Shown one piece after another: positions 10,223 to 60,189 of a stretch of DNA of 64,000 nucleotides. Position numbers and translations under genes: made by a program. The notes beneath the pieces are model-generated. The model was not told where the DNA came from. It saw nothing but the letters and a program-made list of their open reading frames with translations, and did no database searches. The stretch comes from Patiria pectinifera (lineage: Eukaryota; Echinodermata; Asteroidea; Valvatida; Asterinidae): the NCBI GenBank assembly GCA_029964075.1, contig CM057149.1, positions 16,506,197 through 16,570,196 on the forward strand, given 5' to 3'. Every line of letters begins with the position of its first letter. Positions within the stretch are counted from its first letter, which is position 1.

Positions 10223-18341
<8,119 letters not shown>

Positions 18342-24824: not shown

Positions 24825-31420
<6,596 letters not shown>

Positions 31421-32935: not shown

Positions 32936-33286
32936 CGTTGGTGCTCAGTCTTGTGATTTTTAACCCCAGATTGCTACGGTGGTACCTATAACCTATTGAC
33001 AGACAATTAAGTGGTCGGACATGACCGAGAAACAAACAGAGACAGTGACAAGGGACAAAATGGACACTGCAATCAGACACACAAGGACATAACCTAGAAA
33101 AACAGAAACTGGTATGAGACGAGAGCATATACATCTAGATTCATGAATTATAACTAATTATTCGAATAATTAAGAATTGAGAGTAGATGTGATCTAAGGT
33201 TTTTAACAAAGACAGAGAAGGAGGGTGATGATTTTAAGAAGTTATCTAGACTATTCCAATATCATGATGTACAACGTTGAATAACG

Positions 33287-33545
33287 CTATTTTGAGACAA
33301 ATGTTGTTCTGTTAAGGTTAGACATATAAATTTCTCTTACTATAGTGCTTCGGGTGTTATACAAATGAATATCAGATGTGAACATCAAGAAGGGGTTGAA
33401 ACAAGTAGGTAATGTATTGTTTGTAAATTTAAACATAAATTTACCCAGGTTAAAGTAGTATAAGTCATTGAATTGTAAGAGTCTCCGAGTCAAATTGGCA
33501 AATAAAGGAAGGGCCAGTATATGATCACGATATCCAGCACAAATC
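33287..33545 (-). mobile_element. Non-LTR retrotransposon (LINE) fragment, reverse transcriptase C-terminus
   Basis: Minus-strand reading encodes HILALPLFANLTRRLL, DLYYFNLGKFMFKF, LPTCF and IHLYNTRS before a stop. This is the pattern of the extreme C-terminus of LINE ORF2 proteins (DLY..N.GKFM...LP..F.....H.YNTR). Only about 86 codons remain. The same fragment is present in the duplicate at 49981-50239. Confidence 0.75.
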
Positions 33546-33681
33546 GTACCGCTCGCTGCTGTTTCTAATTAAGCTCGCACAACACCATGAAGGAATGAAA
33601 TTTAACGGCGACAGCAGCTGTGGACTATGGACGGACATAAATTCGCTCCTACCCCCCCCCCTTACCCCCGCCCTATACTGG

Positions 33682-34693
33682 CATATGGAGCAAGAAACGA
33701 GACGATCGGTCACGCACCATATGTCATGCAGCATTGCTACACTGCTACAGAATTGAGCATGCGCAGTAACGATATTACACGTGTAGCACTGTGTAGCATT
33801 TAATTTGTGCACAAGTCAATGGTGTAGCACTTTTTTGCTACTTGCCACGGCCCCTTACGCGTGTAGCACTGTGTAGCATTTGATTTGTGCACAAATCAAT
33901 GGTGGTGTACTTTTGCTACTTGGCTTTTTTGCCCTTTCATTTACGCGTGTAGCACTGTGTAGCATTTGATTTGTGCACAAATCAATGGTGTAGCACTTTT
34001 TTGCTACTTGGCACGGCCCCTTCCTTTTCGCCCTTTCATTTACGCGTGTAGCACTGTGTAGCATTTGATTTGTGCACAAATCAATGGTGTAGCACTTTTT
34101 TGCTACTTGGCACGGCCCCTTCCTTTTTGCCCTTTCATTTACGCGTGTAGCACTGTGTAGCATTTCATTTGTGCACAAGTCAATGGTGTAGCACTTTCTT
34201 CTTCCTTTTTGCCCTTTCATTTACGCGTGTAGCACTGTGTAGCATTTCATTTGTGCACAAGTCAATGGTGTAGCACTTTTTTGCTACTTGGCACGGCCCG
34301 TTCCTTTTCGCCCTTTCATTTACGCGTGTTGCACTGTGAAGCATTTGATTTGTGCACAAATCAATGGTGTAGCACTTTTGCCTTCCTTTTCGCCCTTTGA
34401 TTTACGTGTGTAGCGCTTTGTAGCATTTCATTTGTGCACAAGTCAATGGTGTAGCATATATTTTGCTACTTGGCACGGCCACTTCCTTTTTGCCCTTTTC
34501 TTATAACTTGCCAAGCGTTCAGCGTTGGTGCGTTTTCCCTTGTCTGGTTCTTTGACCTTAAGGTGGCTCATGCCCATTCGAATAAAAGGCATCAAGGTAT
34601 CACCTGACTAACTGTTTCCTGTAGCATGTAGCACTGCTACACACACAGGCCTTGAATTCAATTGTCTCAAAACTTGCTGGGTATATATACTGG
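33682..34693. mobile_element. 1-kb insertion with minisatellite core (absent from copy B)
   Basis: Copy B is continuous where copy A carries this block. TATACTGG is present at both edges (33674-33681 and 34686-34693), as expected for an 8-bp target duplication or for microhomology deletion in B. About 700 bp of the core is the tandem array at 33778-34480. Near the edges TGTAGCA/TGCTACA words occur in both orientations, but no clean inverted ends are seen. Confidence 0.6.
33778..34480. repeat. Minisatellite, about 8 units of 79-99 bp
   Basis: Units start near 33778, 33857, 33943, 34042, 34140, 34222, 34321 and 34405 with ACGCGTGTAGCACTGTGTAG. Each contains a palindrome, in the best units the perfect 20-mer TTGATTTGTGCACAAATCAA, followed by GGTGTAGCAC and CCCTTTCATTT. 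Confidence 0.9.
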
Positions 34694-36961: not shown

Positions 36962-39900
36962 ATGTCTCGTAACAAGCAAGAAGAACGCTTTGGCCGGGTG
37001 ACCGGTCATACTCTGCGACGGAGCCCCATGTCCCACCACTTCAGAGAGCAGTTTGTAATAACAAAGAGGACGCATGGTGGAATGGAATACGAAGACATCA
37101 ACGGACAGTTTCAGGAGGTAGTGAGCGATGGAGGCTTGCGTGGATCCAGTGATTTCTTTTGTACGTTTGTGTGGCAAATCACATTTTGATGTGGTTGATA
37201 AATTACCACATTGATTTGTTCTATAATGCTGAAAATAATGATGTGAGCTTTTAAAAGAGGAAGCTTAAGTTTAATTTATGTTAATTGTTTATTACTTTAT
37301 TTGATTTCATTAAATCTATTTAGTAATTGTATTTATTTTTATTAATTTTAATTACTTGCAAAGTGGAGTGCTGCGTCCATAAAAACAGTTGGCGGGTTAC
37401 AGTGAAACATTAAAATTTCTGTGTGTAATGTAAGATTTGCGTTTACTTTAAATTTGCATCAACAGGGGATATGGTCTACTCTCTGAACAAGCAGAAGCGA
37501 TGGGAAATCCCGAGCCTCTTGAAAGAGAGCATCTGCAATGACAAGGACGCCCACGAGGAGCTGGACTTCAAGGTCCTACTGGTGGAGCGACACCTGGACG
37601 CCCACGACGTCTTTAAGCCTGCCTGCACAGGCGTGTACGAATCCAAGACCTCCCGGCCAGAGCGGCTGCCTAAGAAGACCTACGCCCATGCCTGGGACCT
37701 GCGCGGACGGGACCGCAGCAACGCCGCGACCGAAGCCGTCCGCAGCCGCATCCACAAGCTGCGCTGCGCCAAGAATCGCGGTGGGAAGAAGGTGGACTGG
37801 AGGGGGCTGCTGGACGCGCTAGAGGAGAGGATTCGGGAGGAGGGGCAACGATTGGATGAGGAGGAGGAGAGAACACCACAGCTGCATTACGAGGTCGGGT
37901 ACGGCCGGCCCGAGAACAAGTACCCATGGAGGCCAGAGATGAAGATGAACACCGTGACATCCAACAAAAGTAAGAACATTTTACAGCTTGATTCATTTTA
38001 TTATCACTCTTAAGACCATATGAACTCTCACTCCAAAGGACAACTAGGAACAGGCTTGAATCCTGCAAAATCTTCCACTCAAGTATCTGCATTCTTTGTT
38101 CAGAAATTTTCAATTGGCATCAATCCCCATGACGTGTACAAATGACTTTGCTCTACCTTCCTCAATCAAAAACCAAAAAATCAAAAGGTTGGGGTTAATG
38201 ATTCTGAAATGACACTATTATAGTAGATTTGGTACATAAGATACGGTATACTGATGATGCAAACATTGGATGTTTACAAACTGGATGGCCTGAGAGATTC
38301 AAAGATACAGATATTTTTCCCAGTACTTTGAACTTTTTTTGTTTAAACAGAAAGTGATATCCTTAATTTATTATCCTATATTTTAGGGTCTGCAAGCACC
38401 AAACAGAGACATAGAGCCACCACCGCATTCTACATGGAAGACGTCTACGATACGGAGGACTGCATCCAAGATGACATCTATGAGGAGGTTCTGTCTCACT
38501 CGGAGGCAGATTCGAATCTCCAAGATGATGCCATTGACAGTGGCTTGATGATCAGCGAGGAACGACCGAGGCAGACGCTGGGAGATGCTCTGTTTGCCAC
38601 CACGAAGAAACCAAAGCAGAAGAAGCGACGAAAACAGAGCGACATGGACACACATCTGTCAAAGGAGGGAGTCGATAGCAACCAGGGCACGTCAAAGGCC
38701 AAAGTTCAGCACAAGGGTCGTGTTGTCTATGACCCAGAGGGAGCTAAATATAAGCCTCGACCCAAGCCGCAACGTCGAGGAGGCAAAGCTGGCACAGTGG
38801 CGACTGCTAGTGCCCAGTCACAAGCTGGTGCTCTGTCGCAAGAGGTTTTGATTGCAGACACGTGCCAACTGCCCTCCACGTGCCTTCAACTCGACCAAGA
38901 GTCTGTACAACCATCAACGCTTGAGGCAGACTTCGGCAGGGCATACATTGAGGCCCAGTGCAGGCCGAGGAGGTTTGCCGTCCAAGTTGGGGAAGACGAT
39001 CTTTCAAGCGATCCTAGAAACAAAGTATACCTTCTGTTTGAATGCTTGGATGATGATCCCACGACCGTTGAGTGCACAGACTCAATGGAGGCGGAATCGT
39101 GGCAAGTCGTGAAGACAGGAGTGCATGTGAGGTGGGTCATCACAGTTTTTAATTCCAAATATAAGGACCTCAGTTTTGATGTGAAAAACACAGTCGATAT
39201 TTCTTTGAGGTCCAAGGACTTTCTAATTGAAAAAGTTTCTGCTAAATAATTAGAAAAGGGTTTTGATTGGCATTTACTTAAATTACTGGAAACAAAACTG
39301 GTTGCCTGTTCGACTACTTGATACTTGTGCAGGTAATTAGTCTACTAGTCACACGTGACAGTCAGTCAGTCAGTCAGTGCGAGGTTCAAGTCAGGTTCAA
39401 GAGCACACTAGGCTCAAACAGGATCCAACAATTTTGCCATCGGCAGTAATTTGGTCAAACCTATTTCCAGAAAGGGACGGTAAAATTTCAAACCTCAGTT
39501 TTACTCAAGCATCAGTTTTGAAGCACTCAAATCAATTGTTGCCACATTTTTCACCAGGATGACAGTGTACGGCCTGAGCGATCAAGTTCTAGTCACCACC
39601 GAGCAACTGTCTGCTTCTTTTCCGTCGGAAACCATCATTTCTATCCCAGACGTCATCAAGTACATGCAGGATGAGCTCGCAAAGTCTGCCGCTAGCTGGG
39701 GCAGAACGTAAGTGGTTCTGAATGATTCTGTAGTCTTGGCTCGAGACTGGAAAATTCTTATGCTTGCTAAACAGCCGGTCAATGGCAAGCGGTCAAGCGC
39801 CGTCAAGCGCGGTCAAGCGGCCTTGGTGATAAAGGGCAATATCAACAAGATGAATCAAATACAGCCTTCGGAATCTCAGCAAGTGGACCTCAATATTTAG

Positions 39901-42900
39901 AATATTCCCAGGCATAAAAAGACAACAAATACAGGTATATGATATGCTCAGCAATTAAAAACATTAAGGACAAACCTGTGGAAATAAATCAAACTATAAA
40001 AGGCTATAATAATAATGTTGATATTGGCTTCTTGTGTAGCGCTCATGTCCGTCACGAAGTCACGCTCCTGGCGCTCTATTATTACCCTGGCTTTGTGACG
40101 GCTGTTATTACGGCACTCAAAGCAAAAGAATTTCTTCCTACCAGGTACCCATTTACTACACCTGGGTGGAGAGAGGCAATCGTGGTAAAGTGCCTTGCCC
40201 AAGAACACAAGCACCATGTTCTCCGTCAGGATTCGAACCCATGTACCACGGCACACGAGTCGAACACCCTAACTAGTGGACCACAGCACCCCACAACAAC
40301 AAAAAATAACAAATATTACCGCATAGAGAACATAAAACAAAATGAGATAAAATTACACGTCAATATCGAATTAACAATTGAAAGGTTGTCTGTTTGTCTC
40401 AACTTTGGCTCAGATGTTTGAATTAATTTGAAAATTTATCTTATGGTGTAACCTGGCTAAGCCGTTTTACCTGAAATAAAGTGACAATGTACGATTCTAT
40501 TTCAGGGCGGCGCAGGTTGTAATCTCCCGATCCAGACACAATTCTGCAGACATCCCGACTGTGAGGGCGGCGCTGGGTTGGAACTGTCGATTGAGCACGG
40601 CGGATGAGGCTTATAGTGAGATTACTAGCAGACAGACACTTGAGGTAGGAATATAGTATACAAATATCACATGTTTGAAGGTCAATAGTCAATGTTAAGG
40701 GGTCGTGAAATTACCCATTTACCTTCGACGTTGGGCTCAGTCAGATAATATTTGCGAGTATGAAGTTTGTCACACACTTTCAAAGTTGATGTGGTTTGAG
40801 GCAATAAATTGTTTAGAAAAGTCAATTCTGAAACACCAAGAACTGAAATAATATTGAATTAAATCACATAACTGTCTTCTTTTAGCCGCGTTGTGACAAG
40901 GAGATCCGGGAAACCTCAACCTCATCCGACGAATGCGGAATCTGCTACGAGAGCCTGTCTCTCCCAGCCGGTGCAACACTGCCCTCGCTCGGCGGTTTGG
41001 AGGGCACCCTCCTCTCCCCCTGCGGGCACCGTTTCTGCAACGATTGTTGGCGCCAGTACCTGAGGTCAGGGGTCAAGCAGGGAGCCACGGACATCACATG
41101 CCCTGTAAGTTTATAAGTTGATAAGCAGGCAATCCAAGAAATTCCAACTCCAAAGGGCTATCACACCCAAGGGTGGATCCAGAGAGGTTACTCCCTTGGG
41201 GGCGGAGGGTGTGCCAGGGGAGGGGGGACGGTCTCCCACAAATGGAAACTTATTTGAGACGTATTATACTTGGGTCAAATATGAACTGGCCATAAGCATT
41301 ACACATTGATCATTTTACAAATGTCAAATTATTATCTTTAATCCTTCAATTTGTTTTTGTATCCATTTTTTCCTTTATCAGGAGTACAAGTGCAAGACGC
41401 TTGTGGACCCCGTCACGACCATGGCTTTCCTTAGCCCCGCCCTGTTCCATGCTCACTACAGGCGTGCCAGGGACACCACCTTGGCCCGCTCGGCCGAGTG
41501 CCACCGGTGCCCGAATGCACTGTGTGGTCGCGTGGCACGTCTGGAGTCCAATAGTGGATTGTCATCGTCATCATCGTCATCGTCGTCACCCTCGTCATCG
41601 TCATCGTCATCGTCGCTTTCATCGTCATCGTCGTCACTGTCATCATCTATTAGCAGCGAAACTTTGATGACGAAGATGATGACTGTCCGATGCGATTGCG
41701 GTTGGCTGTGGTGCACAGAGTGCAAGGAGGAGGGACACTGGCCGGCTTCTTGCCAGCAGGCCAGCGACTACCGCAAAGCCATGAAGAAAAAACGTGAGTT
41801 GCCATTTTTCTTCATCAATTTAAAAAAAAAAAAAATCCATTTTTGGAGGACATGTCTGAATCTAGGGTCTGTGAATGTCTAGTGAATTTTCTAACCTCAC
41901 AACAGCATAACTGATTTCACTTTTCCTTGTTGCCGTCACTTTTCCAGTGGGCGAAAAAAAAGTATCCCTCATCACTCATGTGCAAGTGAAGCATTGCCCT
42001 GGCTGCCAGACCAGCTGGGAGAAGAACGGCGGATGTCCTCTCATGATCTGCGGCACGTGCAACCTCAACTTCTGCTGGCTGTGTCTTGGCACCTACGACG
42101 GCCATGCCTACGGTGCATGCAATAGGGCTAAAGTTGGCCTCCAGGTAACCAAAATGATGAATTGTGTTGTAAGGGTTTTTAGTTGGCAAATACACGACAA
42201 AAGCGTTTATTATGAACGATTAAGGAGAGTCTGTTGACTGGTTAAATTTGGCTCCAAAATCTTCCATCCATTATGTCACTGCAAAATCTAAGTTTGGACT
42301 TTGAAAGATATGTAGGGAAGTTGGGGCCAATTGTAACAATAACTCAATGAAAACGAAAGTCAAGTTCAGTTGTGTGGAGCAGAGATGTGATCAATGATAA
42401 AATCACCACAAGTCATCAGAAGCCAGTCTCAAATTAATCACAAGTCAGTCACAAGCATAGAGCTTTATTAAATTACTAGAGCGCTAACTCATCAATCTTG
42501 CGCGCGGAGACACTTAGAAGCCGTCCTAGGGTGCAGACTTTTTTTAAATCATGTGCCTGTTGTAGAACATAATGCAATAAGATGGGGTGAGATTTGAAAG
42601 TGTACTCTAACTGCAACACGCAAGTACAACATACGCAAACAACTTAAGTGCGTCACATCGGTTAAAAAACATCACGGCAAAAATCATCTGCGGCGGATAC
42701 GCTGATTATGCGTTTCGGTTTTGGGCGTTTCGGCTATGATAAGCACAGCATAGAATACAAACGCAGATGTGTAAATAGCCGTACAAAAGCCGTACAAAAT
42801 TTCGAGTTTTGCCATGGGTTTGTACACAAACATAGATGCGCCCAGCAGGCATCACTTTGTACATCGAGTCAGCACTCTAGTAATTTAATATAGCTCTGTG

Positions 42901-45900
42901 GTCACAAGTCAGTGGCTAGTCAGTCACCTGTTTACAAGTCAATCACAAGTCAATCACAAATTATCAAAAGTCAATCACAAGTTCAGTGACTAGCTATAAA
43001 TACAAACTATGGTAGCGGCACTCCTTGTTGTTGGTCCTCTGTAACCCACATGACCTGAGTTTTGATTTGACTTGTGATTGACATGTTATTGAGGTATAAG
43101 TTAAAGGGACACTAGGTCCTGGAACAGCCCAATTGGGCTACAAAATGCGCTTTGAACGAGATGATGATAATCGGAAATAACTTTTAAAAGTAGGATATAA
43201 ACATCCACACAACTATCCTTTCAAAACTGGGCGTTTTTGTGTTTTGAGCTGTTTGGATGCTAGTTGTGCGGACATTGAAGAAACCACAATTTTTTGCATT
43301 GGTGATTGGTCACCGCGCGCTGGTCCCGAGACACACAACGTGTATAGCGTACATGAGAACGACACGAAAAACGTATTCGTACTCTGTCATGTCCGATGTA
43401 AGCAAGCAGGTTTTTTTCGTCTTTTCTCGGGAACGGTAAGACATTAGGTTGGTTTCCTTTCAACCAGATGTTTGAAATAGGTTAAGTAAACAATCCAAAA
43501 CATAACATTTTCGGGGATTTCAGGACCTAGTGCCCCTTTAACTTGTGATTGACACCAGAGCTACTTGTAATGACACTACTGTAACTTGTCTTGTTATAAT
43601 AAACACAGTGCCAAACCTATTCATCTTACTTTCCACCATTTTAGGCAGTCAAACTCGACTACAGGGTCCACTCCAAAGACTATCTGCTGGAGCTAGCCAT
43701 TGAGCACCACAAGCATTGGCGCTGGAGCACGCTGAGAAAGGGCCGGTTTGCCCTCAGGAAGTTGGCTTCACAATCGGTGAGTCTGCATTCTGGTCATGGT
43801 CTCGTGTGGTCCGGCGTACCAAACTCAAGATCTGTGGGTTAATTCTGCAGGTTGTGGGTTCAAGTCCAGACTGGGATTTGATGGCCAGGTACTTTGTCTA
43901 GACACTTTGTCGCTAATTGCTTCTCCTCACCCAGTAGTAAATTGGTACACGTGATCTGAAAACAAAGATGGTTATCGTGATTGATTTTATCTGCTTCGAG
44001 CAGGTACAATAATCCAAAGATTGGAGAATCAAATCCCACTCGACTAAATTTCCTCATTTCATTTTTTGTCAAAAAAAACCCTGAATTGACAAACTGGCAT
44101 TGACAAATAGGAATTTGAAAAACAAAATTCAAGAAGCAACGTTTTTATCGTTTGCCAATTTTGGACTATTCTGTCACACAGACCATGGCTCATATCCAAG
44201 GTGAAAGGTCCACGACTAAGTTCCGCACGTCCCAGGTGATGACTATCGATGTTGTCATGGCAACCGCACCCGCTGACAATCACCAGCCGCTGACGTGGGC
44301 TCGGACCAAGGAGCAACTAGAGATGATGAACAGGAGAGCCGAGGAGACGTTTGAGATTGCCGCCTTCTGCCACGAGGTAATTGCATCCCAAAAATAGAGT
44401 TTAAGTACACGTCTTGGGAACGTCTTGCAGTAGGTTTTTTTTATGGCAACATGGCACATTGTGATGTCATCATGAGGTCACTTTAGTTTTTGCCTGACTA
44501 ACACTGCCCGATCTGTACAAATTTAGTTTCAACCAAGTTGGCTTTGTGGGTAGGATGATACGACAGATGATGTCATGCATCGTGATGTCACTTCTCAATG
44601 ACCATCTTCTCTAGGTGGTCTTTGTATGTGCCAAGTTTCAGGTTGATCTGAATACAGAAAAAGTCCAATTTTGTAAGTCGGACAAAAATTACAATTTTTT
44701 TTTTACAGTGTCAATAGACTATTTTGACAAAAACCAACGACTTTATCATCAAGTTGATAAATTTTCCAATAATCTGGTATTCATATATTCCAGTCTGGAC
44801 TTGATTGAATATTCAAATGTTTGAAATGCGCTAATCAAGTTTCACATGCGCCAGCCTGAATTGGCCACTGATGGAGATTTACCATACTAAGTGACGAAGT
44901 GTCTCTTCATTTTTTATTTGTTTTTTTTTTAACAGAGTGTTTAGACACAGATCTGACACAGGGTATTGAGATGCACATGTACAAATATATTTCAGTACAA
45001 AAATTAATTTTTTTGATTTTTTTTTACAGTGTCATTTTGTGTTGGAGCATCTGGCCTTCCTGCTTTGGAGTCTGCCGCGTCGTCAGCGAAAGGCAAAATG
45101 GTGGCGAGCCATGGCGGATCTCAGGTTTATCGTGCAGAATCTCCAGCAGGTAGGATATGCTAATTTCATCCCAACGTTTCTTTTTTTAGAAACTTTGGCA
45201 GTTTTTACAACTGATCTTAAAAATTAAGAGTTTTTGCAAGGATGTCTGGTTTCCAGTCGTTGACCACGAAGTTAATTCCCGTCTTTAATTTAACTTTTTA
45301 ATTTGTGATTTTTTTTGACAAAAAAAACAGAAAACTGTTCAGGACTGTTCTTTTGTTAAAATACAGATCTTCCCATAAATTATGCCTGTTTGAACTTTGT
45401 GATGTCACTAAAGGGAAAAGCAGAGAAATTGAAGGTTTCAGAAGGGAATTTTTTTTAATATCAACATAAATTTTTTTTTAATTCAACTTTATTGGCAAAA
45501 TTACAGTCTAAACTTTCATAGTATACTTAAGACAAATCACAAATTTGCCAAAAATAAAAAAAATCACATTTGAAAAAACAAACCGTGGACATTTTTTAAT
45601 TGTACCTTTATTTCAAGTAGTCTATGTAATAGACCGTGGCGGAAGCCATGATCTGTTACAGATGAACAGATTCGCTGATTAATTAGACAAGACAACCGCA
45701 TCTTCTACCTCATGATTTTGACCAATCAGGAGGGGTTTTCTATGTCGGGTCTTCGGTCATTCACCTTTGTCGCGTCTAGACATGGATGAAAAATATCCCG
45801 CTAGACACAGCAACAAAGGCTATTTATGTTACGTGACACTTACGCACACGGCTGTTGTTGCATTACAAAACACTGGATTCGAATTGACCAATAACAGTTT

Positions 45901-46316
45901 TAGTCCTGATTTGGGAATGAAAGGACATCACGATTTAGTAAAGTCGACTCCGTTTGGTGCGAGATCGCATAAATCTGCATGCTTTGACATATCAGATGTT
46001 ATACAGGAGATTTGGCTCAGTGGATAATGGGTGATACTCGGACTACATTTAGCTCTGCCTAGAAGCATCTGGTTTTGACAGAACGATGTCATATTCGGTT
46101 CTTCAGACCATGTGATGGGTTAACATATATATCGTTTAAAAACCTTGTCACTTTCTCTTCTAGACACTGGAAAATGTGCCCAACATCAAGATGGCCGAGT
46201 CAGAGTCCACCATGGACAGACTGTGCAGGCTGATGCATGCTGGGAAGGTGTTCCTGAGGAGGCTGGCACTGAGCATGCCCAGTACACTGCCGCAAGGACG
46301 CAAGATCAAGGAGTAA
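36962..46316 (+). CDS. RBR-type E3 ubiquitin ligase, RBR-A (predicted 1050 aa)
   Basis: Twelve coding exons join in phase to 3153 bp: 36962-37148, 37466-37969, 38387-39131, 39558-39707, 40506-40644, 40886-41104, 41382-41793, 41948-42144, 43645-43776, 44182-44376, 45030-45149, 46164-46316. The start is the ATG at 36962 (A at -3); upstream coding exons are not excluded. About 590 N-terminal residues have no domain I recognise. They include acidic stretches, DALEERIREEGQRLDEEEER and a basic NLS-like KKPKQKKRRKQ (304-314). RING1 spans about C592-C652 (CGIC, CGHRFCNDC, CPEYKC). The IBR spans about C691-C772 (CPNALC, CDCGWLWCTEC, H767, C772), split by a 30-residue serine tract. RING2 starts at C802 (CPGC, WEKNGGC, CGTC, FCWLC); C815 is the predicted catalytic cysteine that forms a thioester with ubiquitin. 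A helical Ariadne-like tail follows (EQLEMMNRRAEETFEIAAF, CHFVLEHLAFLL). Only the exon-1 donor (GTGATT) is weak. Confidence 0.85.
40122..40289 (-). mobile_element. tRNA-derived SINE (minus strand), RBR-A intron 4
   Basis: On the minus strand an A-box-like TGGTCCACTAGTTAGGG is followed by a B box GGTTCGAATCC (40229-40239). The body then reads TTGGGCAAGGCACTTTACC and TAAATGGGTACC. This matches the SINE copies at 55041 and 63095. Confidence 0.75.
40886..41104 (+). other. RBR-A RING1 exon
   Basis: Encodes residues 576-648. Zinc ligands visible are C592, C595, the CGHRFCNDC cluster and the CP that begins the last pair; its partner C652 is in the next exon. RING1 recruits the E2-ubiquitin conjugate in RBR ligases. 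The copy-B exon (55759-55977) has the same length and nearly the same sequence. Confidence 0.8.
41382..41793 (+). other. RBR-A IBR exon with serine tract
   Basis: Encodes residues 649-785. (TCN)n microsatellite DNA at about 41567-41645 adds roughly 30 serines between the second and third zinc-ligand pairs of the IBR. All canonical cysteines and H767 are kept. In copy B the same exon (56963-57335) is 39 bp shorter, entirely in this tract. Confidence 0.8.
41567..41645 (+). repeat. Coding (TCATCG)n microsatellite
   Basis: Repeats of TCATCG/TCG encode polyserine inside the IBR domain of RBR-A. Copy B has a shorter, interrupted version at about 57140-57200. Complementary-strand Asp-rich reading frames here are artefacts of the repeat. 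Confidence 0.85.
41948..42144 (+). other. RBR-A RING2 exon (catalytic)
   Basis: Encodes CPGCQTSWEKNGGCPLMICG and then TCNLNFCWLC, matching the RBR RING2 consensus with the catalytic cysteine after GG. All ligand spacings are standard, so RBR-A is predicted to be active. Confidence 0.8.
42462..42899. mobile_element. MITE with AGAGCT.TATTAAATTACT ends
   Basis: Left AGAGCTTTATTAAATTACTA (then GAGCGCTAACTC) and right complement of AGAGCTATATTAAATTACTA (then GAGTGCTGACTC). About 430 bp, no coding content. Confidence 0.7.
43105..43537. mobile_element. TTAA-flanked MITE, AGGGACACTAGGTCCTG ends
   Basis: TTAA at 43101-43104 and 43538-43541. Ends AGGGACACTAGGTCCTG and CAGGACCTAGTGCCCCT are inverted repeats with one mismatch. 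TTAA duplication suggests mobilisation by a piggyBac-type transposase. Confidence 0.8.
43795..43960 (+). mobile_element. Old tRNA-like SINE remnant, shared by both RBR copies
   Basis: TCGTGTGGTCCGGCGTACC followed by GGTTGTGGGTTCAAGTCC (B-box-like), then a CTTCTCCTCACCCAGTAGTA body resembling the SINE body. The matching 59050-59150 in copy B is truncated after the B box. The insertion therefore predates the duplication. Confidence 0.5.
45617..46046. mobile_element. Dispersed element, TAGTCTATGTAATAGAC...GGTGATACTCGGACTAC
   Basis: Bounded by GTAGTCT and AGTCC/GACTAC-type inverted ends of a few bases. A 76-bp internal deletion form with the same ends lies at 20922-20997, and right-hand fragments lie at 32690-32935 and 49521-49615. 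It sits in the last intron of RBR-A. Confidence 0.65.
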
Positions 46317-46625: not shown

Positions 46626-46698
46626 AGCTCGTTGGTCGAGTGGTAAGACGTCTGCACTAGAAAGCAGGAGGTCGTGGGTTCGAGTCCCACCCGAGTGA
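46626..46698 (+). tRNA. tRNA-like gene or pseudogene with internal pol III boxes
   Basis: The 73-base sequence folds partly as a tRNA: D arm GTC/GAC, anticodon stem TCTGC/GCAGG, perfect T arm GTGGG-TTCGAGT-CCCAC with B box GGTTCGAGTCC, and T8 immediately downstream (46699-46706) as a pol III terminator. The acceptor stem pairs at only five of seven positions, and the anticodon loop is eight bases (ACTAGAAA), resembling serine AGA tRNA but without its long variable arm. It is more likely a tRNA pseudogene or SINE head than a working tRNA. Confidence 0.4.
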
Positions 46699-48290: not shown

Positions 48291-48304
48291 TCGCCGTCAG
48301 TCTT

Positions 48305-48552
48305 GTGGATCCCACCGCTGCCACCACTGTAATGAGCATCGCCAATTAACTGTGTGGATCCCACCGCTGCCACCACTGTAATGAGCATCGCCAGTTAACC
48401 GTGTGGATCCCACCGCTACCTCCAATGTAATGAGCATCGCCAGTTGGCGTGTGGATCCCACCGCTACCTCCAATGTAATGAGCATCGCCAGTTAACCGTG
48501 TGGATCCCACCGCTGCCACCAGTGTAATGAGCATCGCCAGTTAACCCTGTGG

Positions 48553-48555
<3 letters not shown>
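48305..48555. repeat. 49-bp tandem repeat, five units
   Basis: Units start at about 48305, 48354, 48403, 48450 and 48500 with GTGGATCCCACCGCT and end ATGAGCATCGCCAGTTAACC. A partial sixth start lies at 48549, exactly at the edge of the inverted Rho-2 fragment. Confidence 0.9.
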
Positions 48556-49518
<963 letters not shown>

Positions 49519-49980
49519 CCGGCGCTGGAGCGGCTTGCATTACCCTATACCTGCATGTGAGCCATATCAGCCGTTATACAGGAGACTAATTCAAGTTGGT
49601 GATACTCAGACTAGGGCGGCGTTGGTGCTCAGTCTTGTGATTTTTAACCCCAGATTGTTACGGTGGTACCTATAATAACCTATCGACTGACAACAGTGAC
49701 AAGTGGTCGGACATGACCGAGAAACAAACAGAGACAGTGACAAAGGACAAAATGGACACTGCAATCAGACACACAAGGACATAACCTAGAAAAACAGAAA
49801 CTGGTATGAGACGAGCTAGAGCATACATCTAGATTCATGAATTATAACAAATTATTCGAATAATTAAGAACTGAGAGTAGATGTGATCTAAGGTTTTTAA
49901 CAAAGACAAAGAAGGAGGGTGATGATTTTAAGAAGTTATCTAGACTATTCCAATATCATGATGTACAACGTTGAATAACG

Positions 49981-50239
49981 CTATTTTGAGACAAATGTTG
50001 TTCTGTTAAGGTTGGACATATAAATTTCTCTTACTATAGTGCTTCGGGTGTTATACAAATGAATATCAGATGTGAACATCAAGAAGGGGTTGAAACAAGT
50101 AGGTAATGTATTGTTTGTAAACTTAAACATAAATTTACCCAGGTTAAAGTAGTATAGGTCATTGAATTGTAAGAGTCTCCGAGTCAAATTGGCAAATAAA
50201 GGAAGGGCCAGTATATGATCACGATATCCAGCACAAATC
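49981..50239 (-). mobile_element. LINE fragment, duplicate of 33287-33545
   Basis: Same reverse transcriptase C-terminal remnant as in copy A, nearly identical, carried along by the segmental duplication. Confidence 0.75.
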
Positions 50240-51951
50240 GTACCGCTCGCTGCTGTTTCTAATTAAGCTCGCACAACACCATGAAGGAATCAAATTTAAC
50301 GGCGACAGCAGCTGTGGACTATGGACGGACATAAATTCGCTCGTACCCCCCCCCCTTACCCCCGCCCTATACTGGGCGTACCCTGGGCGGGGGGTATACG
50401 GGCGAAAGACGTAAGTTTGCTGATGGAAAATTTGCTGATGGAAAATCAGTAGAGGGCGGTATAACCATTTTTATCAAACGATTACGGCTGTTCTATTTTA
50501 AGTTGGGCGATACCACCAAAGGTGTTGCCAAAATACCAGCATTATACAGAGAGACAATTCTTACCAAATATAAGTTATGATGACATTAGAAACATCAAAG
50601 TGTAGAATAAATAAATACTTTTTTTGATTTATTTACAAGGCCTAAGTTCAACTAATTGAAATTGAGTGCAAGAATTTATTGTGGAACCCCTACTTACTAA
50701 TGAAACATGCTGTTCAAAAGGTCAGTCTGAAAAACCAAAACAAGACACGCAAAATGTTGCACAACTTGGGTGAAATTATGGCAAAACTCAACAGTATAAA
50801 AGTCACATTTAGCCGCTGTTCTTTAGGCTTAAAGGTAAAGGAAGGGCTTAACAGCAACCGTGCCGACTGGAGGAGGAACCACTGTCGTCATCTTGAGGTA
50901 CAATTGTATTTTTAATTATTATTATAATAATAATATTATTATGAAAGATTATAATGAGCTTTGAGTTTGACTTTGTTGTGGTTGACTAGTCCAATGTATG
51001 TATGTAGTCCGCGAAAATTTGGGTCTCTCAATTTATGCTGTGGTGGGCATGGAGTGCTCTGACATGTCTGAAACAGTGTCACCGCTTCATATTTTTTTCT
51101 TCAAGATCAGCAATTTTTTTTTCAAGATTTGTCAAGCCTATGCAAATTCTTACACAACCATGTGCTAATAAAATACACGTAATTTTCAGAGTACAATTTT
51201 TGGGCTAAATTAAAAACCAACTTACATGACTTACTGGATTTTGGTTTTAAAAAAACCCCAAAAACTCACTACTGTAGTTCTAGTGTAGCGAGCTGCTAAA
51301 TAAAAATAACAAATTTAAAATACAAATTACACAACCGTAAAAAGGTTTACATAAAATGTATTTTGTTGGTTTGCACTTTTGGGAAATTTTTCAAGATTTT
51401 TGGCTTTTTGGGATTCTTTTTTTTTTTTTCAAGTTTCCAAGATGGGTCTCAAATTTTTAAGAACTTGAAACAATTTTTAACATGCAAAACTAAATCAGGC
51501 CAACTTTACTCATTTGCCATCAAATTTCTCCAAAATTTCCATTCGGCAAAGAAAAGGTCCTCCGTATTTCACCAGCCACCTCTTTGGTTGTGTAATGTGT
51601 ACTGAGAGTCGATTGCATTTTCAAAGTATTTTCTAAAATTAGTAACCAAATTGGAAATGTTTCTCAGTCCCAGATTCATGTTTTCTAACATTTCTGCAAT
51701 GACTGACCTTCCGTTGTGATAATATATGATAAAAAAGGTAGCATCAGGATGCAACTTTCTTTTCACACAAAAAATCACGAAACAAAAAAAGGGGAGGTGG
51801 ACAGAAAAAAAGGCAGTGGGCGGGGCAAGAAACTGGTTTGCTTCTTAAGTTGGCCTTATTAGAATTGGCTTTTTTTTTTTACCATAGTGGCATCCTAGCT
51901 GACACCATTTCATCACATCAGGACCTGAGCGCAGTCGACAACAAGGAGAAC

Positions 51952-54900
51952 ATGTCTCGTAACAAGCAAGAAGAACGCTTTGGCCGGGTGACCGGTCACA
52001 CCCTGCGACGGAGCCCCATGTCCCACCACTTCAGAGAGCAGTTTGTAATAACAAAGAGGACGCATGGTGGAATGGAATACGAAGACATCAACGGACAGTT
52101 TCAGGAGGTAGTGAGCGATGGAGGCTTGCGTGGATCGCGTGGATCGCGTGAGTAGAATAGATTTCCTTTGTACGATTGTGCGGCAAATCACATTTTGATG
52201 TGGTTGATAAAGTACCACATTGATTTGTTCTATAATGCTGAAAATAATAATGTGAGCTTTTAAAAGAAGAAGCTTAAGTTTAATTTATGTTAATTATTTA
52301 TTACTTTATTTGATTTCATTACATCTATTTAGTAAATTGTATTTATTTTTATTAATTTTAATTACTTGCAAAGTGGAGTGCTGCGTCCATAAAAACAGTT
52401 GGCGGGTTACAGTAAAACATTTAAATTTCTGGGTGTAATGTAAGATTTGCATTTACTTTAAATTTGCATCAACAGGGGATATGGTCTACTCTCTGAACAA
52501 GCAGAAGCGGTGGGAAATCCCGAGCCTCTTGAAAGAGAGCATCTGCAATGGCAAGGACGCCCACGAGGAGCTGGACTTCAAGGTCCTACTGGTGGAGCGA
52601 CACCTGGACGCCCACGACGTCTTTAAGCCTGCCTGCACGGGCCTGTACGAATCCAAGACCTCCCGGCCAGAGCGGCTGCCTAAGCAGACCTACGCCCATG
52701 CCTGGGACCTGCATGGACGGGACCGCAGCAACGCCGCCACCGAAGCCGTCCGCAGCCGCATCCACAAGCTGCGCTGTGCCAAGAATCGCGGTGGGAAGAA
52801 GGTGGACTGGAGGGGGCTGCTGGACGCGCTAGAGGAGAGGATTCGGGAGGAGGGGCAACGATTGGATGAGGAGGAGGAGAGAACACCACAGCTGCGTTAC
52901 GAGGTCGGGTACAGCCGGCCCGAGAACAAGTACCCATGGAGGCCGGAGATGAAGATGAACACCGTGACATCCAACAAAAGTAGGAAGCATTTTTGCATCA
53001 TAGATCATTTCATTATCACTCTTAGACCATATCAACTCTCACTCCAAAGGACAACTAGGAACAGGCTTGAATCCTCCAAAATCTTCCACTCGAGTATCTG
53101 CTGGGTCTCCTTAATTAATAGTGCATTCTTTGTTCAGAAATTTTCAATTGGCATCAATCCCGGCCGTGACGTGTACAAATGGCTTTGCTGTACCTTCCTC
53201 TATCAAAAAAAACCCAGAACTTCCTGGTGGATTTTAAAGGATCAAGAAAGGGTGGGTTAATGATGCTGCAATGACAATATTATAGTAGATTTGGTACATA
53301 AGATACGGTATACTGATGACGTAAGCATTGGATGTTTGCATACCGAATGTCTCAAGAGATTCAAAAATTCAGATTTTTCACAGTACTTTGTGAACTTTTT
53401 TTTTATAATCAGATGATAATATATCCTTTATTTATTATCCTATATTTTAGGATCTGCAAGCACCAAACAGAGACATAGAGCCACCATCGCATTCTACATG
53501 GAAGACGTCTACGATATGGAGGACAGCATCCAAGATGACATCTATGACGAGGTCTTATCTCACTCTGAGGCAGATTCGAATCTCCAAGATGATGCCATCG
53601 ACAGTGGCTTGATGATCAGCGAGGATCGACCGAGGCAGACGCTGGGAGATGCTCTGTTTGCCACCACGAAGAAACCGAAGCAGAAAAAGCGACAAAAACA
53701 GTGCGAGATGGCAACACATCCGTCAAAGGAGGGAGTCACTAGCAACCAGGGCACGTCAAAGGCCAAAGTTCAGCACAAGGGTCGTGTTGTCTATGACCCG
53801 GAGGGAGCTAAATATAAGCCCCCACCCAAGCGGCGACGTCGGCGAGGCAAAGCTGCATCAGCTGGTACCCAGTCACAAGCCATTGCCCAATTACAAAAGA
53901 ATTGGCTTGGACATGAGTGCCAACTACCCTCCACGTGCCTTCAACTCGATCAAGATTCCGTACGACCATCCAGGCTTGAGGCAGACTTCGGCAGGGCATA
54001 CGCTGAGGCCCAGTGCAGGCCAAGGAGGTTTGCTGTCCAAGTCGGAGAAGACGATCTTTCAAGCGATCCTAGAAACAAAGTACACCTTCTGTTTGAATTC
54101 TTGGAAGATGATCCCACGACCGTCAAGTGTACCGATTCAACAGAGGTGGAATCGTGGCAAGTCGTGAAGACAGGAGTGCATGTGAGGTGGGTCACATATC
54201 TCAACCAAAATATTAACCTCAATTTCGATGTCAAAAACAGGATCAATATTTTGAGAACTTTCAAATGGAAAAGGTTGCCGAATAATTAGAAAGGGTTTTA
54301 ATTGGCATAAACTTAAATTACTGGAAACAAGACTAGCTCCTGTCACAGACCCATGCAGTCACAAGTGATAGTCAGATAATCATACAGGTTACCAGTCTAT
54401 TAGTAACGTCAGTCAGTCAGTCAGTCAGTGGGATAGGTTCAAGAGCACACTAGGCTCAAGCGGGATCAAACTATTTTGCTTTTGGCAGGATTTGGTCAAA
54501 CCTCTTTCCCGAAAGGGAAGGGAAAATTTCAAACCTACATGTAATTTTCACTCAAGCATCAGTTTTGAAGCACTCAAATCCATTATCATATTTTCACCAG
54601 GATGACAGTGTACGGCCTGAGCAATCAAGTTCTAGTCACCACCGAGCAACTGTCGGCTTCTTTTCCGTCGGATACCATCATTTCTACCCCGGCCGTCATC
54701 AACTACATGCAGGATGAGCTCGCAAAGTCTGCCGCTAGCTGGGGCAGAACGTAAGTGGTTCTGAATGACTCTGTTAGTCTTGGCTCAAGACTGGATTTAG
54801 ATTACGTTCCTGAGCTTGTCAATGGCAAGCGGCAAGTGCCGTCAAGCGCCGTCAAGCGTGGTCAAGTGGCCTTGGTGATAAAGGGCAATATCAATAAGAT

Positions 54901-57900
54901 GAATCAAATACAGTCTTTGGAATCTCAGCAAGTGGACCTCAATATTTATAATGTTCCCGGGCATAAAAAGACAACAAGTACAGGTATATGATATGCTCAG
55001 CAAATAAGACATTAAGGACAGACTTGGGCTTGCCTAAAAGGGGAGAGTGTGGCCTAGTGGTTAGGGTTTGTGACTCAGAGGCCTGGTCATGGCTTCGAAT
55101 CCAGCCACTGGTCATATGTTGTGTCCTTGGGCAAGCCACTTCATCCCCACTTGGCTTTGCCCACCCAGGAGTATAAATGGGTACCGGCATTAGCGTCTGT
55201 TTATCTCAACTTTCACTCTGATGTTTGAATTACATTCAAAATTTATCTTATGGTGTAACCAGGTAAACCGTATTACCTGAAACAAAGTGACAATGTACGA
55301 TTCTATTTCAGGGCGGCGCAGGTTGTAAGCATCCGATCCAGACACAATTCTGCAGACATCCCGACTGTGAGGGCGGCGCTGGGTTGGAACTGTCGATTGA
55401 GCACGGCGGACGAGGCTTATAGTGAGATTACTAGCAGACAGACACTTGAGGTAGGAATATAGTATACAAATATCACATGGTCTGAAGGCCAATAGTCAAT
55501 GTTAAGGGGTCGTGAAATTACCCATTTACCTTCGACGTTGGGCTTGGTTAGATAATATTTTTTGAGATCATCCGATATTTTTGATGACATCCGAAAGCAA
55601 GCTTGATGTCCCTTCAATACCATTATCATTTCTTTATTAGCTTCCTGGATGAACTTTGTCACACACTTGTGAGGCAATATGTTGTTTAGAAAAGTCAATT
55701 ATGAAATACCAAGAACTGAAATAATACTGAATTAAATCTCATAAATGTCTTCTTTTAGCCGCATTGTGACGAGGAGATCCAGGAAACATCAACGTCATCC
55801 GACGAATGCGGAATCTGCTACGAGAGCCTGTCTCTTCCAGCCGGCGCAACACCTCCCTCGCTCGGCGGTTTGGAGGGCACTGTCCTCTCCCCCTGTGGGC
55901 ACCGTTTCTGCAACGATTGTTGGCGCCACTACCTGAGGTCAGGGGTCAAGCAGGGAGCCACAGACATCACATGCCCTGTAAGTTTATAACCGGCCAATCC
56001 AAAAAATTGCAACTCCGAAAAGGCTGTCCCACCCAAGGGTGGATCCAGAGAGGTTACTGCCGGGGGATGGGGGGGGGGGTCCCTCAAGAGTACAAACTCG
56101 ATAGGATCTCGGAAGCTGCAGACAAATCATCATGTCTCTCAATAGTGTGTACAATAGTTAGTTAGTAGCAAACGTTCTGTACAGCCGCAGCTCAGCACGA
56201 TGAAAGGCCACAATCCGGTGTGGACAATCTGCATGCCTGCTGCATAACAGCTCTCGAGATCTCATTCATAGACTCAGCCGTACACATTCCACGCAAAATG
56301 CAACACAAACTGAACAAGCTCGAAAGGATCTCGAGAGCTGCGGACTCCCAACGAATTTGTGTTGCACCTTTGCGTGGAATGTGTACAGCCGTTGTCTGTG
56401 AATGTGATCTCGAGAGCTGCTATGCAGCAGGCATGCAGCTGCTGTCCCCCGGATTATTGCCTTTCATTGGGATGCGGCTGCGCAGAACGTTTGTTACTAA
56501 CTAACCAAGTAACCAACCTACTAACTAACGTACCGACTAATGGAGAGACATGGTGATTTTTTGAGCTGCAATCCGCAGCTAAAAATGGCCTTATTTGAGA
56601 AAATTTGTGTCACTGGTGGGGGGGGGGGTGTTCCGCACCCCCCTGGATCCACCACTAACACCTGTTGCCGGTGTAGGCACTGGCAGTAATGTTATCAGAG
56701 GAAAGTTTGTATGCTAAACATGTGAGGGTTGCCGCTTGTAATAGGGAGTTGAAGACGGCAGTATCTGAATCGTGTCCAACTCATTGCAACTGACAGTGTA
56801 AATACATTTGTAGTTCAAATGACATAGCAAAGTTATGTTCACACTGCTGTTGGGTTGAAGTACAAACTGGCACAGTGATCATTTTATAGTGGATTTATTC
56901 ATGGATGTCAAGTTATTATCGTAGCTCCTTCAATTTTTTTGTATCCATTTTCCTTTTATCAGGAGTACAAGTGCAAGATGCTTGTGGACCCCGTCACGAC
57001 CATGGCTTTCCTTAGCCCCGCCCTGTTCCATGCTCACTACAGGCGTGCCAGGGACACCACCTTGGCCCGCTCGGCCGAGTGCCACCGGTGCCCGAATGCA
57101 CTGTGTGGTCGCATGGCATGTCTGGAGTCCAACAGTGGAGTGTCATCGTCACCGTCATCAATGTCATTGTCATCATCACCGTTATCGTCCTTAAGCAGCA
57201 AAACTTTGATGACGAAGATGATGACGGTCCGATGCGATTGCGGTTGGCTGTGGTGCACAGAGTGCAAGGAGGAGGGACACTGGCCGGCTTCTTGCCAGCA
57301 GGCCAGCGACTACCGCAAAGCCCTGAAGAAAAAATGTGAGTTTGCCATTTTTCAGATGTATTATTTTTTTTGTAGATGTTTCCAACGGTAAAAATCCTTT
57401 ATACATATCAGAATCCAGGGAATGTGAAATGAACATAGTTTTGAAGGAACTGCTTTTTTTCAAACGCAATATTTGTTAACATCTTCCCAGTGCAAAAGTC
57501 CTTCATACAAGACATCAAGTTTTTCTTCCTTTGGTTTTTTTTTTTTTGGGGGGGGGAGGGGAAGACATGTCTGAATCCAGGGTATGTGAATGTGTAGAAC
57601 GTTTTTAAACACTAAACAAAACAGTGCAGCTTTAACACTTTCGCTTTTCCCTTGTGCCTTGTTGCCGTCCATTTTTTTCCAGTTGGCGGAAGAATAAGAC
57701 CCCTCATCACTCACGCGATAACGAAGCAGTGCCCCGGATGCAAGACGCGTTGGGAGAGGAGCCGCGTATGTTTCTTTCCTACATTTGTGATCTGCGACAT
57801 GTGCAAAGTCCGGTTCTGCTGGCATTGTCTCAGCGCCCCCTGGCAACATGACCGCAAACAATGCAGAGAGTCTAGAGACCACCCAGAGGTGAACAAAATA

Positions 57901-60189
57901 GGATGAATTCGTTGCCTCAGTGCTGTAACGTCTTTGGCGGGTTTTCGTGAATTTGAGAAAATACAGTTGGAAGTTTTGGTGCCCAAGGAAAATTATACAA
58001 GCAATCTGTCAACCACGCTGAGTGTGATAGTTGGGAAGATTTCAATGTCTGTATTTCAATAAAATGAATTTTTTGTGTGTGTTTAAACTTGTTATTTTCT
58101 GAGAAAACACAGTTATTGTAGTCCACACCTTAAGGTGTGGTGTGCACCAAAAGGTCTTTATCCATCAGTGACTTTTTGTCGATAATGCATTTAGGAGATA
58201 CGTACATAGGTGCTGTATGCTGGGACAAAAGATCATTTTCCGTTAGTGACCCTTGTCCACAACGCATTAATGAGATCTTTAGGTGCCGTATGAAACAAAA
58301 TGTTGTTATCCGTTAGTGGCCTTTTGCCAATAACTCATTGGTCATTATCATGCTTTTTACCGTAATGTTGCCAATTAGCGACCTTATGAAAAGAATACAA
58401 TGTGAAATAAAAATAAGGCCCTTTTTTAGTTAGTTAATTTCTAGCATAATCAAAAAGATAAAATGAATTTTTTTTTTTGTAAGAAGCAAGTATTTTGACA
58501 GCTTAATAACATGCAACAAAAAAGTAATTTTGGCCAAAATTGCCATAACGACCTTATTAGCACTGAGCCAATGGCTTGTTTGTTGTCAGGGTTTCTAGTT
58601 GGCAAATACACCACACAAAAACGCGGAACCCAAAAACCCCCCAAAATGTGTTCACATTCAATAAAATATGTAGTATCAAAAATAATTATGACTGGTAAGC
58701 CAATTTAATAAGCTACTTTTAGACGAACAAAGTACTGTAATTGCTTTAATCGGTTAAAAAAAATATCAACATTTAAACACAATGATCCTAAACCTTTTTT
58801 GTCCAAAAATTTGATTTCAAGAATCCTCAACACAATGGTCTTCAAACATCACCAGCAATAAAACCTCAGTTTAAAGGCCTGTCTTGCGTTCCACCATTTT
58901 AGGTAATCATACTAGACTACAGGGTCCACTCTGAAAACCACATGCTGGAACTAGCCATTGAGCACCGCAAGCACCGGCACTGGACCACGCTGAGAAAGGA
59001 CTGGTTTGCCCTCAAGAAGTTGGCTTCACGAGCGGTGAGTCTTCATTGTGGTCATGGTCTCGTGTGGTCCGGCGTACCAAACTCAAGATCTGTGGGTTAA
59101 TTCTGCAGGTTGTGGGTTCGAGTCCAGACGTGGTCACACACGCTGTGGATCTGGTTGTTTCATGATCGAGATCATGTGATCCAGCGCAGTGCAAAAACAA
59201 GCAGGACCACCCTATCTTGCGCGTCAATTTTTTTTAGGGTGCCCTCTCCTTATTTTTAAACACTTGGAATACCATGAACTCATGAGACAAATGTCATCTG
59301 CTTCAGATTTTGTAGGCAGAAGGGCTATTTTGATGATAAGCTTTCTATAATTTCCAGAAAAAGTAAATCAATCGTACTGTTTTTATTCACAAAATACACT
59401 CTAAAAGAATTGGCGATCGTGTAGTGTAGGGCCCGGTTCCTAGAAGGGAACAAAATCCAATTCAAAATTATTAGACCGACCAAACTAGGTGGCGACATTC
59501 TCAATAAACAGGTATGTCATAGATAGAGGGAAGGGTTTTGATTTTTTGAGGGAAATTTGGGGGTAAAATGACGACGACAGCGCGGCGACAACACGCAACA
59601 TGAAAATACAAATTGCGATCACCGCGCGATGTACCGTGAGCACGCACGGCGCGCTGAATCGCAAGGCACAAACCGCGCAGGAAAATCGTGATTTCCATCC
59701 AAGAAACTGTTCAAAATTGCAAAACGGGTGTCGTTAGAATTGAGAAAAGTCTGCTTTTGATTGAAAAGATGATTTTTGAGCAATAAAAAAAAGACATTCT
59801 AGTCTGATCAAAACAAAACAGGGGTTCTACACTACACGATCGCCAAAGAATTATGAAAAAATATTGTCACAATTAAAAGCTAATTAGATCCTTCAAATCT
59901 ACTACTTGTCTCTCTGTCCGTCATGCATGTTGCCATCCTTGAAATGAGCTGATAAAGAAATTTGGAAGCAATTTTGGACTATTCTGTCACACAGACCATG
60001 GCTCATATCCAAGGTGAAAGGTCCACGGCTAAGCTCCGCACGTCCCAGGTGATGACTGTCGATGTTGTCATGGCAACCGCATCAGCTGGCAATCACCAGC
60101 CGCTGACGTGGGCTCGGACCAAGGAGCAACTAGAGATGATGAATGAGAGATACGAGGAGACATTTGAGATTGCCGCCTTCTACCATGAG
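51952..60189 (+). CDS. RBR-type E3 ligase paralogue, RBR-B (first ten coding exons, 950 aa; 3' end outside window)
   Basis: Exons 51952-52147, 52476-52979, 53451-54186, 54601-54750, 55312-55450, 55759-55977, 56963-57335, 57683-57888, 58903-59034 and 59995-60189 join in phase to 2850 bp without a stop. Counterparts of RBR-A exons 11 and 12 are not found before the window ends. The N-terminal region, RING1 (C592-C652) and IBR match RBR-A closely, with a shorter serine tract. RING2 does not: CPGCKTRWERSRVC is followed by seven residues before the next cysteine instead of four, and the GG before the catalytic cysteine (here C802) is RV. The remaining ligands CDMC and FCWHC are kept. It may therefore be catalytically altered or impaired. 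Exon 1 has a 9-bp tandem duplication that creates a strong GTGAGT donor. Confidence 0.82.
55041..55196 (+). mobile_element. tRNA-derived SINE (plus strand), RBR-B intron 4
   Basis: A-box-like TGGCCTAGTGGTTAGGG, B box GCTTCGAATCC, then TTGGGCAAGCCACTTCATCC and GGAGTATAAATGGGTACC. It lies at nearly the same intron position as the minus-strand SINE in RBR-A but is a separate insertion. Confidence 0.78.
56038..56653. mobile_element. GGTGGATCCAG-ended element containing a long palindrome
   Basis: GGTGGATCCAG at 56038-56048 and CTGGATCCACC at 56643-56653 are perfect inverted ends next to poly-G/poly-C tracts. Inside, 56125-56558 is an imperfect palindrome with arms of about 190-215 bp centred near 56340. 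For example CATGCCTGCTGCATA.CAGCT and TGTACACATTCCACGCAAA occur on one arm and in complement on the other. Copy A has only a short GGTGGATCCAG stub (41172) and no palindrome. Confidence 0.8.
57683..57888 (+). other. RBR-B RING2 exon (divergent)
   Basis: By eye only about 60-65% identical to the RBR-A exon, while the neighbouring introns keep stretches of about 90% and the IBR exon upstream is nearly unchanged. Catalytic-loop spacing is changed from C-x4-C to C-x7-C. Confidence 0.75.

Follow-up and report, generated by a model that had tools for sequence, protein, structure and literature searches.

Catalytic domains are usually among the slower-changing parts of an enzyme. A cluster of RING1-IBR-RING2 (RBR) ubiquitin ligase genes in the sea star Patiria pectinifera raises the question of what drove the divergence of the one exon that encodes RING2 and with it the catalytic cysteine. 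A sequence-only reading of the window, that is, of the whole 64,000-nucleotide stretch of DNA analyzed (C21:16506197-16570196), had described two such genes, RBR-A and RBR-B. It proposed that the RING2 exon of RBR-B had changed faster than its introns, either under positive selection or through sequence donated by a third paralogue, and that RBR-B might be a non-catalytic or retargeted partner of RBR-A. The explanation favored here, to which we assign a probability of about 0.62, is that an RBR ligase was duplicated and its catalytic face came under positive selection, within a cluster that recombination has also shuffled.

The RBR Gene Cluster

Three RBR copies, termed RBR-A, RBR-B, and RBR-C, occur in the cluster, each with 12 exons, a single open frame, and GT-AG junctions (Table 1). 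The gene models are homology-based and were made without transcripts. A third RBR with a B-like RING2, for which the earlier reading had advised a genome search, does exist: the RBR-B RING2 exon, used as a DNA query, was found in three places, namely B, C, and A. When RING1 and IBR were used as protein queries against the whole genome, seven matches came up: six belong to A, B, and C, with two exons from each gene, and one is weak (C4, E 2e-4). Neither DNA nor protein search of the genome, with the best candidates scored, yielded a fourth RBR copy or a close RING2 donor besides A, B, and C; further matches were weak, with E values of 0.2 (C19) and 0.3. The locus C9:3270154, presumably an RNF144-like RING2, was considered as an exon donor and ruled out, being only 41% alike.

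Table 1. Positions of the RBR genes and of the parts discussed in the text, in window coordinates
Feature	Position	Strand	Remarks
RBR-A	36962..46316	+	12 exons, 1050 aa, A-type RING2 (EKNGGC, spacing 4); homology exon model
RBR-A exon 8 (RING2)	41948..42144	+	Cys815 codon (catalytic position) 42034-42036
A-like 5′ side of RBR-B	51352..52475	+	upstream 600 nt, exon 1, and intron 1 resemble A rather than C
RBR-B exons 1-10	51952..60189	+	full RBR-B (12 exons) 1040 aa; sole stop at end
RBR-B exon 2	52476..52979	+	A-like to C-like switch within or near
RBR-B intron 7	57336..57682	+	B-C 10/347 differ (global alignment)
RBR-B exon 8 (RING2)	57683..57888	+	B-type (ERSRVC, spacing 7); AG/GT borders, open frame
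RBR-B Cys802 codon	57769..57771	+	catalytic-position Cys kept
RBR-B post-Cys fast-changing stretch	57772..57888	+	B-C 19/117 bases differ
RBR-B intron 8	57889..58902	+	B-C 22/1011 differ (global alignment)
RBR-B exon 9	58903..59034	+	changed versus A too (28/44 aa alike), not versus C (42/44)
RBR-B exons 11-12	window-equivalent 64708-64827, 65925-66077	+	just beyond window end
RBR-C	window-equivalent 104505 to 92801	opposite	inverted, 27 kb beyond RBR-B; outside window

The IBR exon (exon 7) harbors a serine-codon repeat of varying length, located at 41561-41647 in A and at about 57140-57200 in B; the exon measures 412 nt in A, 373 in B, and 403 in C. Elsewhere in the window, Pfam detects Ras-family GTPase exons on the minus strand at 10223-10510 and 24825-25097, which by reading are Rho-like with CAAX-like ends. 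More Rho-like exons were recognized by eye at 28000-29467 on the same strand. Upstream of RBR-B, a plus-strand copy of a Rho-like first exon, likewise found by eye (about 49286-49443), has an in-frame stop early on and looks like a broken fragment. Minisatellite arrays lie near both RBR duplications (33775-34498 and 48304-48555), and ARAGORN reports a tRNA-like gene without a clear anticodon at 46626-46698.

The RING2 Active Site

The sequence-only reading had placed the RING2 exon of RBR-B exactly, and its numbering of the catalytic cysteine (Cys815 in A, Cys802 in B) is correct; with Cys810 in RBR-C, the cysteine at this position is kept in all copies. The RING2 sequences are CPGCQTSWEKNGGCPLMICGTC in RBR-A, CPGCKTRWERSRVCFFPTFVICDMC in RBR-B, and CPGCKTRWERSRVCPFPSLVTCDLC in RBR-C. 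The active-site motif EKNGGC-PLMI-C of A corresponds to ERSRVC-FFPTFVI-C in B, and C is of the same type as B. The alteration of KNGGC (to RSRVC) and the addition of three residues after the cysteine were thus described accurately, the spacing to the next cysteine growing from four to seven. Both glycines preceding the catalytic cysteine are absent from B and C. RING2 has nine Cys/His positions that do not vary, either in a 21-sequence alignment of A, B, and 19 of 124 database proteins or across A, B, C, and the Patiria miniata and Acanthaster sequences. With the zinc ligands assigned as in HHARI, the predicted ligand positions are kept in RBR-A, B, and C.

The 124 database proteins of the RBR survey comprise five from a search with RBR-A and 119 from an Ariadne-like query (best 120 of 169). 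A glycine before the catalytic cysteine combined with a spacing of four is present in 124 of 124 RBR proteins among the matches listed, and also in A, but not in B or C; this combination is typical of RBRs, not formally defining. Among the same matches listed, 121 of 124 carry a histidine at Cys+2 and 107 of 124 a glutamate two residues before CWxC, both of which are missing from A, B, and C. In place of the histidine of Ariadne-type RBRs, A has leucine, P. miniata and Acanthaster have serine, and B and C have phenylalanine; the glutamate place is occupied by asparagine in A, P. miniata, and Acanthaster and by arginine in B and C. A Cys-His-Glu/Gln pattern is described for parkin, HHARI, and HOIP in the part of PMC3940038 consulted, and all five sea-star sequences deviate from the pattern as given there. 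Since RBR-A is devoid of the usual histidine and glutamate, it is neither a safe catalytic benchmark nor a proven active standard.

The closest protein found for RBR-A is LOC119736918 of P. miniata (P0001), with 91% over residues 570-1000, followed by LOC110974212 of Acanthaster planci (P0002) with 62%. Both belong to the same family, match along the whole protein, and possess an A-type RING2 (EKNGGC, spacing 4); in their N-terminal half, Pfam gives no match at E 0.001. The protein database yielded no B-type protein: full-length RBR-B matched only P0001 and P0002 among the candidates sharing most words. The order RING1-IBR-RING2 is present, and Pfam zf-C3HC4 and IBR score above cut-off in A and B. 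The RING2 itself matches Pfam IBR_1 with 28.9 bits in A, above the cut-off of 27, and with 16.2 bits in B, below it. AlphaFold models of the lone RING2 reach middling mean pLDDT values (73.0 for A, 68.5 for B). A Foldseek search with the B model returned ARIH1, ARIH2, HOIP, and parkin chains at the top, the best with an E value of 0.012 and none below 0.001. By sequence, ARIH1/HHARI and ARIH2 are the best solved-structure matches to RBR-A. Unlike Ariadne-type RBRs, however, A, B (without exons 11-12), P0001, and P0002 give no Pfam match to an Ariadne domain, although a diverged one is possible.

Divergence between RBR-A and RBR-B

The RING2 exons of A and B are alike at 126 of 197 bases (64%), as the earlier estimate of 60-65% implied, and their products share 24 of 65 amino acids. 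Near identity had been claimed for the N-terminal exons, RING1, and IBR, and these are indeed very similar (62/62 amino acids in exon 1, 161/167 in exon 2, 67/73 in the RING1 exon, 113/124 in the IBR exon), but not uniformly so, exon 3 being identical at only 206 of 244. The description of parts of introns 7 and 8 as about 90% alike was overdrawn: islands at 89.5% do exist, yet none exceeds 38 nt. By BLAST, two such islands (38 and 19 nt) cover 57 of the 154 bases of A's intron 7, and a single one covers 38 of the 1500 bases of intron 8; the bulk of both introns is not comparable. Forced alignment of the last part of intron 7 yields 79 of 110 bases alike (shuffled control: mean 45%, maximum 54% in 20 shuffles), and the start and end of intron 8 yield 17/22 and 19/25. 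The alignable intron ends adjoining exon 8 are accordingly 72-77% alike versus 64% for the exon, so that exon 8 has diverged, at the very most, a little further than the intron sequence next to it. Its divergence is nonetheless greater than that of the BLAST-alignable intron blocks when these are pooled over the whole gene (307 mismatches in 2803 sites, 11%).

The comparison of dN/dS by exon recommended in the sequence-only reading, which had named normal silent divergence in the exon as refuting its proposal, shows that silent divergence in exon 8 is itself raised. NG86 estimates for this exon are Ks 0.396 and Ka 0.514 for A-B and Ks 0.452 and Ka 0.461 for A-C; for the other exons together they are Ks 0.135 and Ka 0.053 (A-B) and Ks 0.151 and Ka 0.055 (A-C). 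Exon 8 stands above the rest both in A-B (12.3/40 versus 80.5/653 silent differences, p 0.003) and in A-C (p 0.0009). By exon, A-B silent divergence is 0.03-0.08 in exons 1, 2, 4, 5, and 12, 0.345 in exon 11, and 0.40 in exon 8. Because of this elevation, selection alone does not explain the A-B contrast, and an older, unhomogenised genealogy accounts for part of the A-B divergence of exon 8.

Divergence between RBR-B and RBR-C

Introns 2-11 of RBR-B and RBR-C differ at 153 of 7108 aligned sites, or about 2% (1.6-3.2% by intron), and introns 7 and 8 at 32 of 1358 (2.4%). Nonsynonymous differences in the RING2 exon amount to 19 in 163 sites (11.7%), which exceeds the level of introns 7 and 8 (Fisher test, p 3e-7), that of nonsynonymous sites in the other exons (45/2242, p 1e-8), and that of the pooled synonymous sites (33/691, p 0.003). 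The nonsynonymous rate of exon 8 is thus about fivefold that of the introns and 2.4-fold that of the pooled silent sites, and by amino-acid change this exon is the fastest-changing one between B and C. NG86 gives Ks 0.077 and Ka 0.127 for exon 8, as compared with Ks 0.048 and Ka 0.020 for the other exons together. The proposal that the RING2 exon diverged beyond its flanking introns, weak for A-B, therefore stands clearly for B-C.

Most of this change follows the catalytic cysteine, where 17 of the 19 nonsynonymous changes (17/96 sites) and two of 21 synonymous sites are affected; in total, 19 of the 22 differences in exon 8 fall within the 117 bases after the cysteine, reaching the exon end. 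Immediately outside the exon, B and C differ at two of the 100 nt that precede it in intron 7 and at three of the 99 nt that follow it in intron 8. A 150-site sliding comparison from exon 1 to past exon 10 gives 14% in exon 8 and no more than 7.3% elsewhere, except for exon 1/intron 1, where the maximum of up to 26% is found. Since the latter peak arises by recombination, a local maximum does not by itself prove selection. The choice of yardstick matters as well: synonymous sites outside exon 8 have changed more (25/609) than the introns have (p 0.004), so that introns may understate the neutral rate and silent sites are the more cautious reference. Synonymous change in exon 8 (3/41) is somewhat above the introns (p 0.08), an excess that would also be expected from a small donated patch or from local hypermutation.

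Recombination within the Cluster

Sites informative in the three-way comparison unite A with B rather than B with C in the 600 nt upstream (259 versus 3), in exon 1 (7 versus 1), and in intron 1 (57 versus 5). In intron 2 the relation is reversed, with 47 sites for B=C and 6 for A=B, and B=C is also favored by introns 3 and 5 and by exons 3 and 6-12. Exons 2, 4, and 5 give no clear three-way signal (exon 2: A=B 4, A=C 6, B=C 6). Intron 1 of RBR-C differs by 21% from that of RBR-B. By these patterns RBR-B is a recombinant gene, A-like along its 5′ side and C-like in its body, with the switch in or near exon 2. Given the shared upstream side, A and B may be expressed alike. A 0.86 kb block upstream of both genes (32831-33681 and 49515-50375, 96.5% alike) belongs to the A-B segmental duplication.

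Codon Models and Orthologues

Omega was estimated in a codon model in which exon 8 shares its silent rate with exons 2-7 and 9-12, exon 1 being left out because of the recombined 5′ end. For exon 8 the model yields 3.2 in B-C (p 3e-4), 4.4 in A-B (p 6e-13), and 3.3 in A-C (p 4e-9), where the p-values for A-B and A-C are not to be taken at face value because silent divergence of exon 8 lies above the rest. The B-C value for the post-Cys stretch, a subset chosen after the data had been seen, is 5.6 (p 2e-6). With the few silent sites of exon 8 itself as reference, omega is 1.8 in B-C (p 0.35), 1.6 in A-B (p 0.27), and 1.1 in A-C (p 0.85), and 2.4 (p 0.22) for the post-Cys stretch in B-C; these sites are too few for omega above 1 to be provable from the exon alone.

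Between A and the P. miniata protein, 16 of 65 amino acids differ in exon 8 and 50 of 976 elsewhere (p 7e-7). No exon 8 excess is seen between P. miniata and Acanthaster (18/65 versus 316/946) or between A and Acanthaster (23/65 versus 321/950), which suggests a recent acceleration. Protein distances split the exon 8 change equally between the B and C branches, 8.5 each. Outside exon 8, A and P. miniata are 5.1% apart and A and B 10.6%, suggesting that the B/C type is older than the separation of A from its P. miniata counterpart. That a B-type protein was not found for P. miniata may reflect loss, missing annotation, or faster change.

Alternative Explanations

The strongest competitor holds that the RING2 of B and C has lost catalysis and that both proteins serve as non-catalytic decoys binding E2~Ub or as partners of A. 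Loss of the glycine and the spacing of four seen throughout the RBR matches listed, together with the sub-threshold IBR_1 score of B, points in this direction. Such a role would be compatible with positive selection and overlaps with the favored explanation; by itself, drift after loss of function should remain at or below the neutral rate, whereas nonsynonymous change in B-C exon 8 is above it, and the cysteine and ligand positions are kept. We regard catalytic loss as possible, if somewhat doubtful.

It seems rather unlikely that gene conversion is the whole story, having homogenised the rest of A and the B/C ancestor while RING2 kept its old divergence. The strong dependence of A-B silent divergence on the exon, with exon 8 above the rest, fits such a mosaic, as does the composite build of RBR-B with its A-like 5′ end. 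For the A-B contrast, this mechanism is compatible with the favored explanation. It leaves unexplained, however, the excess in B-C exon 8, where introns 2-11 are nearly the same, and the excess of amino-acid differences that A and P. miniata show in exon 8.

Donation of the post-Cys stretch of B or C by a lost or unassembled paralogue is improbable. The crowding of the B-C differences into one segment that runs up to the exon end fits a donated patch, as do the silent changes found there. Yet the genome searches, with the best candidates scored, revealed no fourth copy, the change is borne equally by both branches, and a donor evolving at the usual omega near 0.4-0.5 would, by our estimate, be expected to bring more than two silent changes. 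The third paralogue envisaged earlier does exist in the form of RBR-C, but B and C are equally close across introns 2-11, so that RBR-B is not the recipient of a RING2 exon alone from C. An artefact, be it a wrong exon, an alternative RING2 exon (which the earlier reading had allowed for in RBR-B), a pseudogene, or an assembly error, is hardly credible, as the genome searches, with the best candidates scored, find one RING2 exon per locus and none besides in RBR-B, the same RING2 type recurs at two separate loci, and the open frames and GT-AG junctions speak against a pseudogene.

Proposed Remodeling of the Catalytic Face

Positive selection on the catalytic face would account for the B-C excess over both introns and gene-wide silent sites, and the A-B contrast would mix it with old divergence. 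Under this explanation, RBR-A would be the older form of this sea-star RBR ubiquitin ligase, as the A-type RING2 shared with P. miniata and Acanthaster suggests. A duplicate would have given rise to a second type, now represented by B and C, in which KNGGC of RING2 became RSRVC and three residues were gained after the cysteine. After B and C had separated, the post-Cys stretch would have gone on changing under positive selection in both, with the introns nearly static and RING1, IBR, and the Cys/His at ligand positions of RING2 retained. B and C would presumably still bind E2~ubiquitin via RING1 and fold their RING2, while the RING2 face that receives ubiquitin and meets the substrate would have been remodeled, making B and C retuned or retargeted partners of A and not mere copies.

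In the portion of PMC3772753 consulted, Trp379 near the C-terminus of HHARI RING2 is reported to contact the loop of the catalytic cysteine and Tyr387 to contact zinc site II. The fast stretch of B and C, from the catalytic cysteine to the exon end, spans the parts matching this Trp379/Tyr387 region, which would put the changes on or near the catalytic face. B and C are, in our view, ligases that have been retuned or retargeted; the chief alternative is that they act as non-catalytic partners binding E2~Ub. A more far-reaching proposal, to which we give little credence, is that they constitute a new kind of RBR whose active-site loop (RSRVC, spacing 7, neither His nor Glu) would use a changed ubiquitin-transfer chemistry or non-lysine acceptors, the catalytic face being engaged in an arms race with, e.g., a pathogen or gamete protein. 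If selection is confirmed, B and C would provide a natural experiment on the RING2 features needed for ubiquitin transfer and would also be informative on the outside partner driving the change.

Relation to Known Systems

Among the matches listed in a literature search, there was no paper on the RBR-A/B/C gene or on a positively selected RING2 exon. The expansion of ARI1 genes in Caenorhabditis (PMC6288150) likewise represents a recent lineage-specific duplication of RBR genes; the terms "RING2" and "positive selection" are absent from the main text of that article in the form consulted. Genes for snake three-finger toxins, as described in the part of PMC2474615 consulted, likewise combine similar introns with strongly changed exon segments and kept cysteines. 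The proteins concerned in that case are venom toxins, whereas in RBR-B and RBR-C the changed segment belongs to the catalytic domain of an enzyme.
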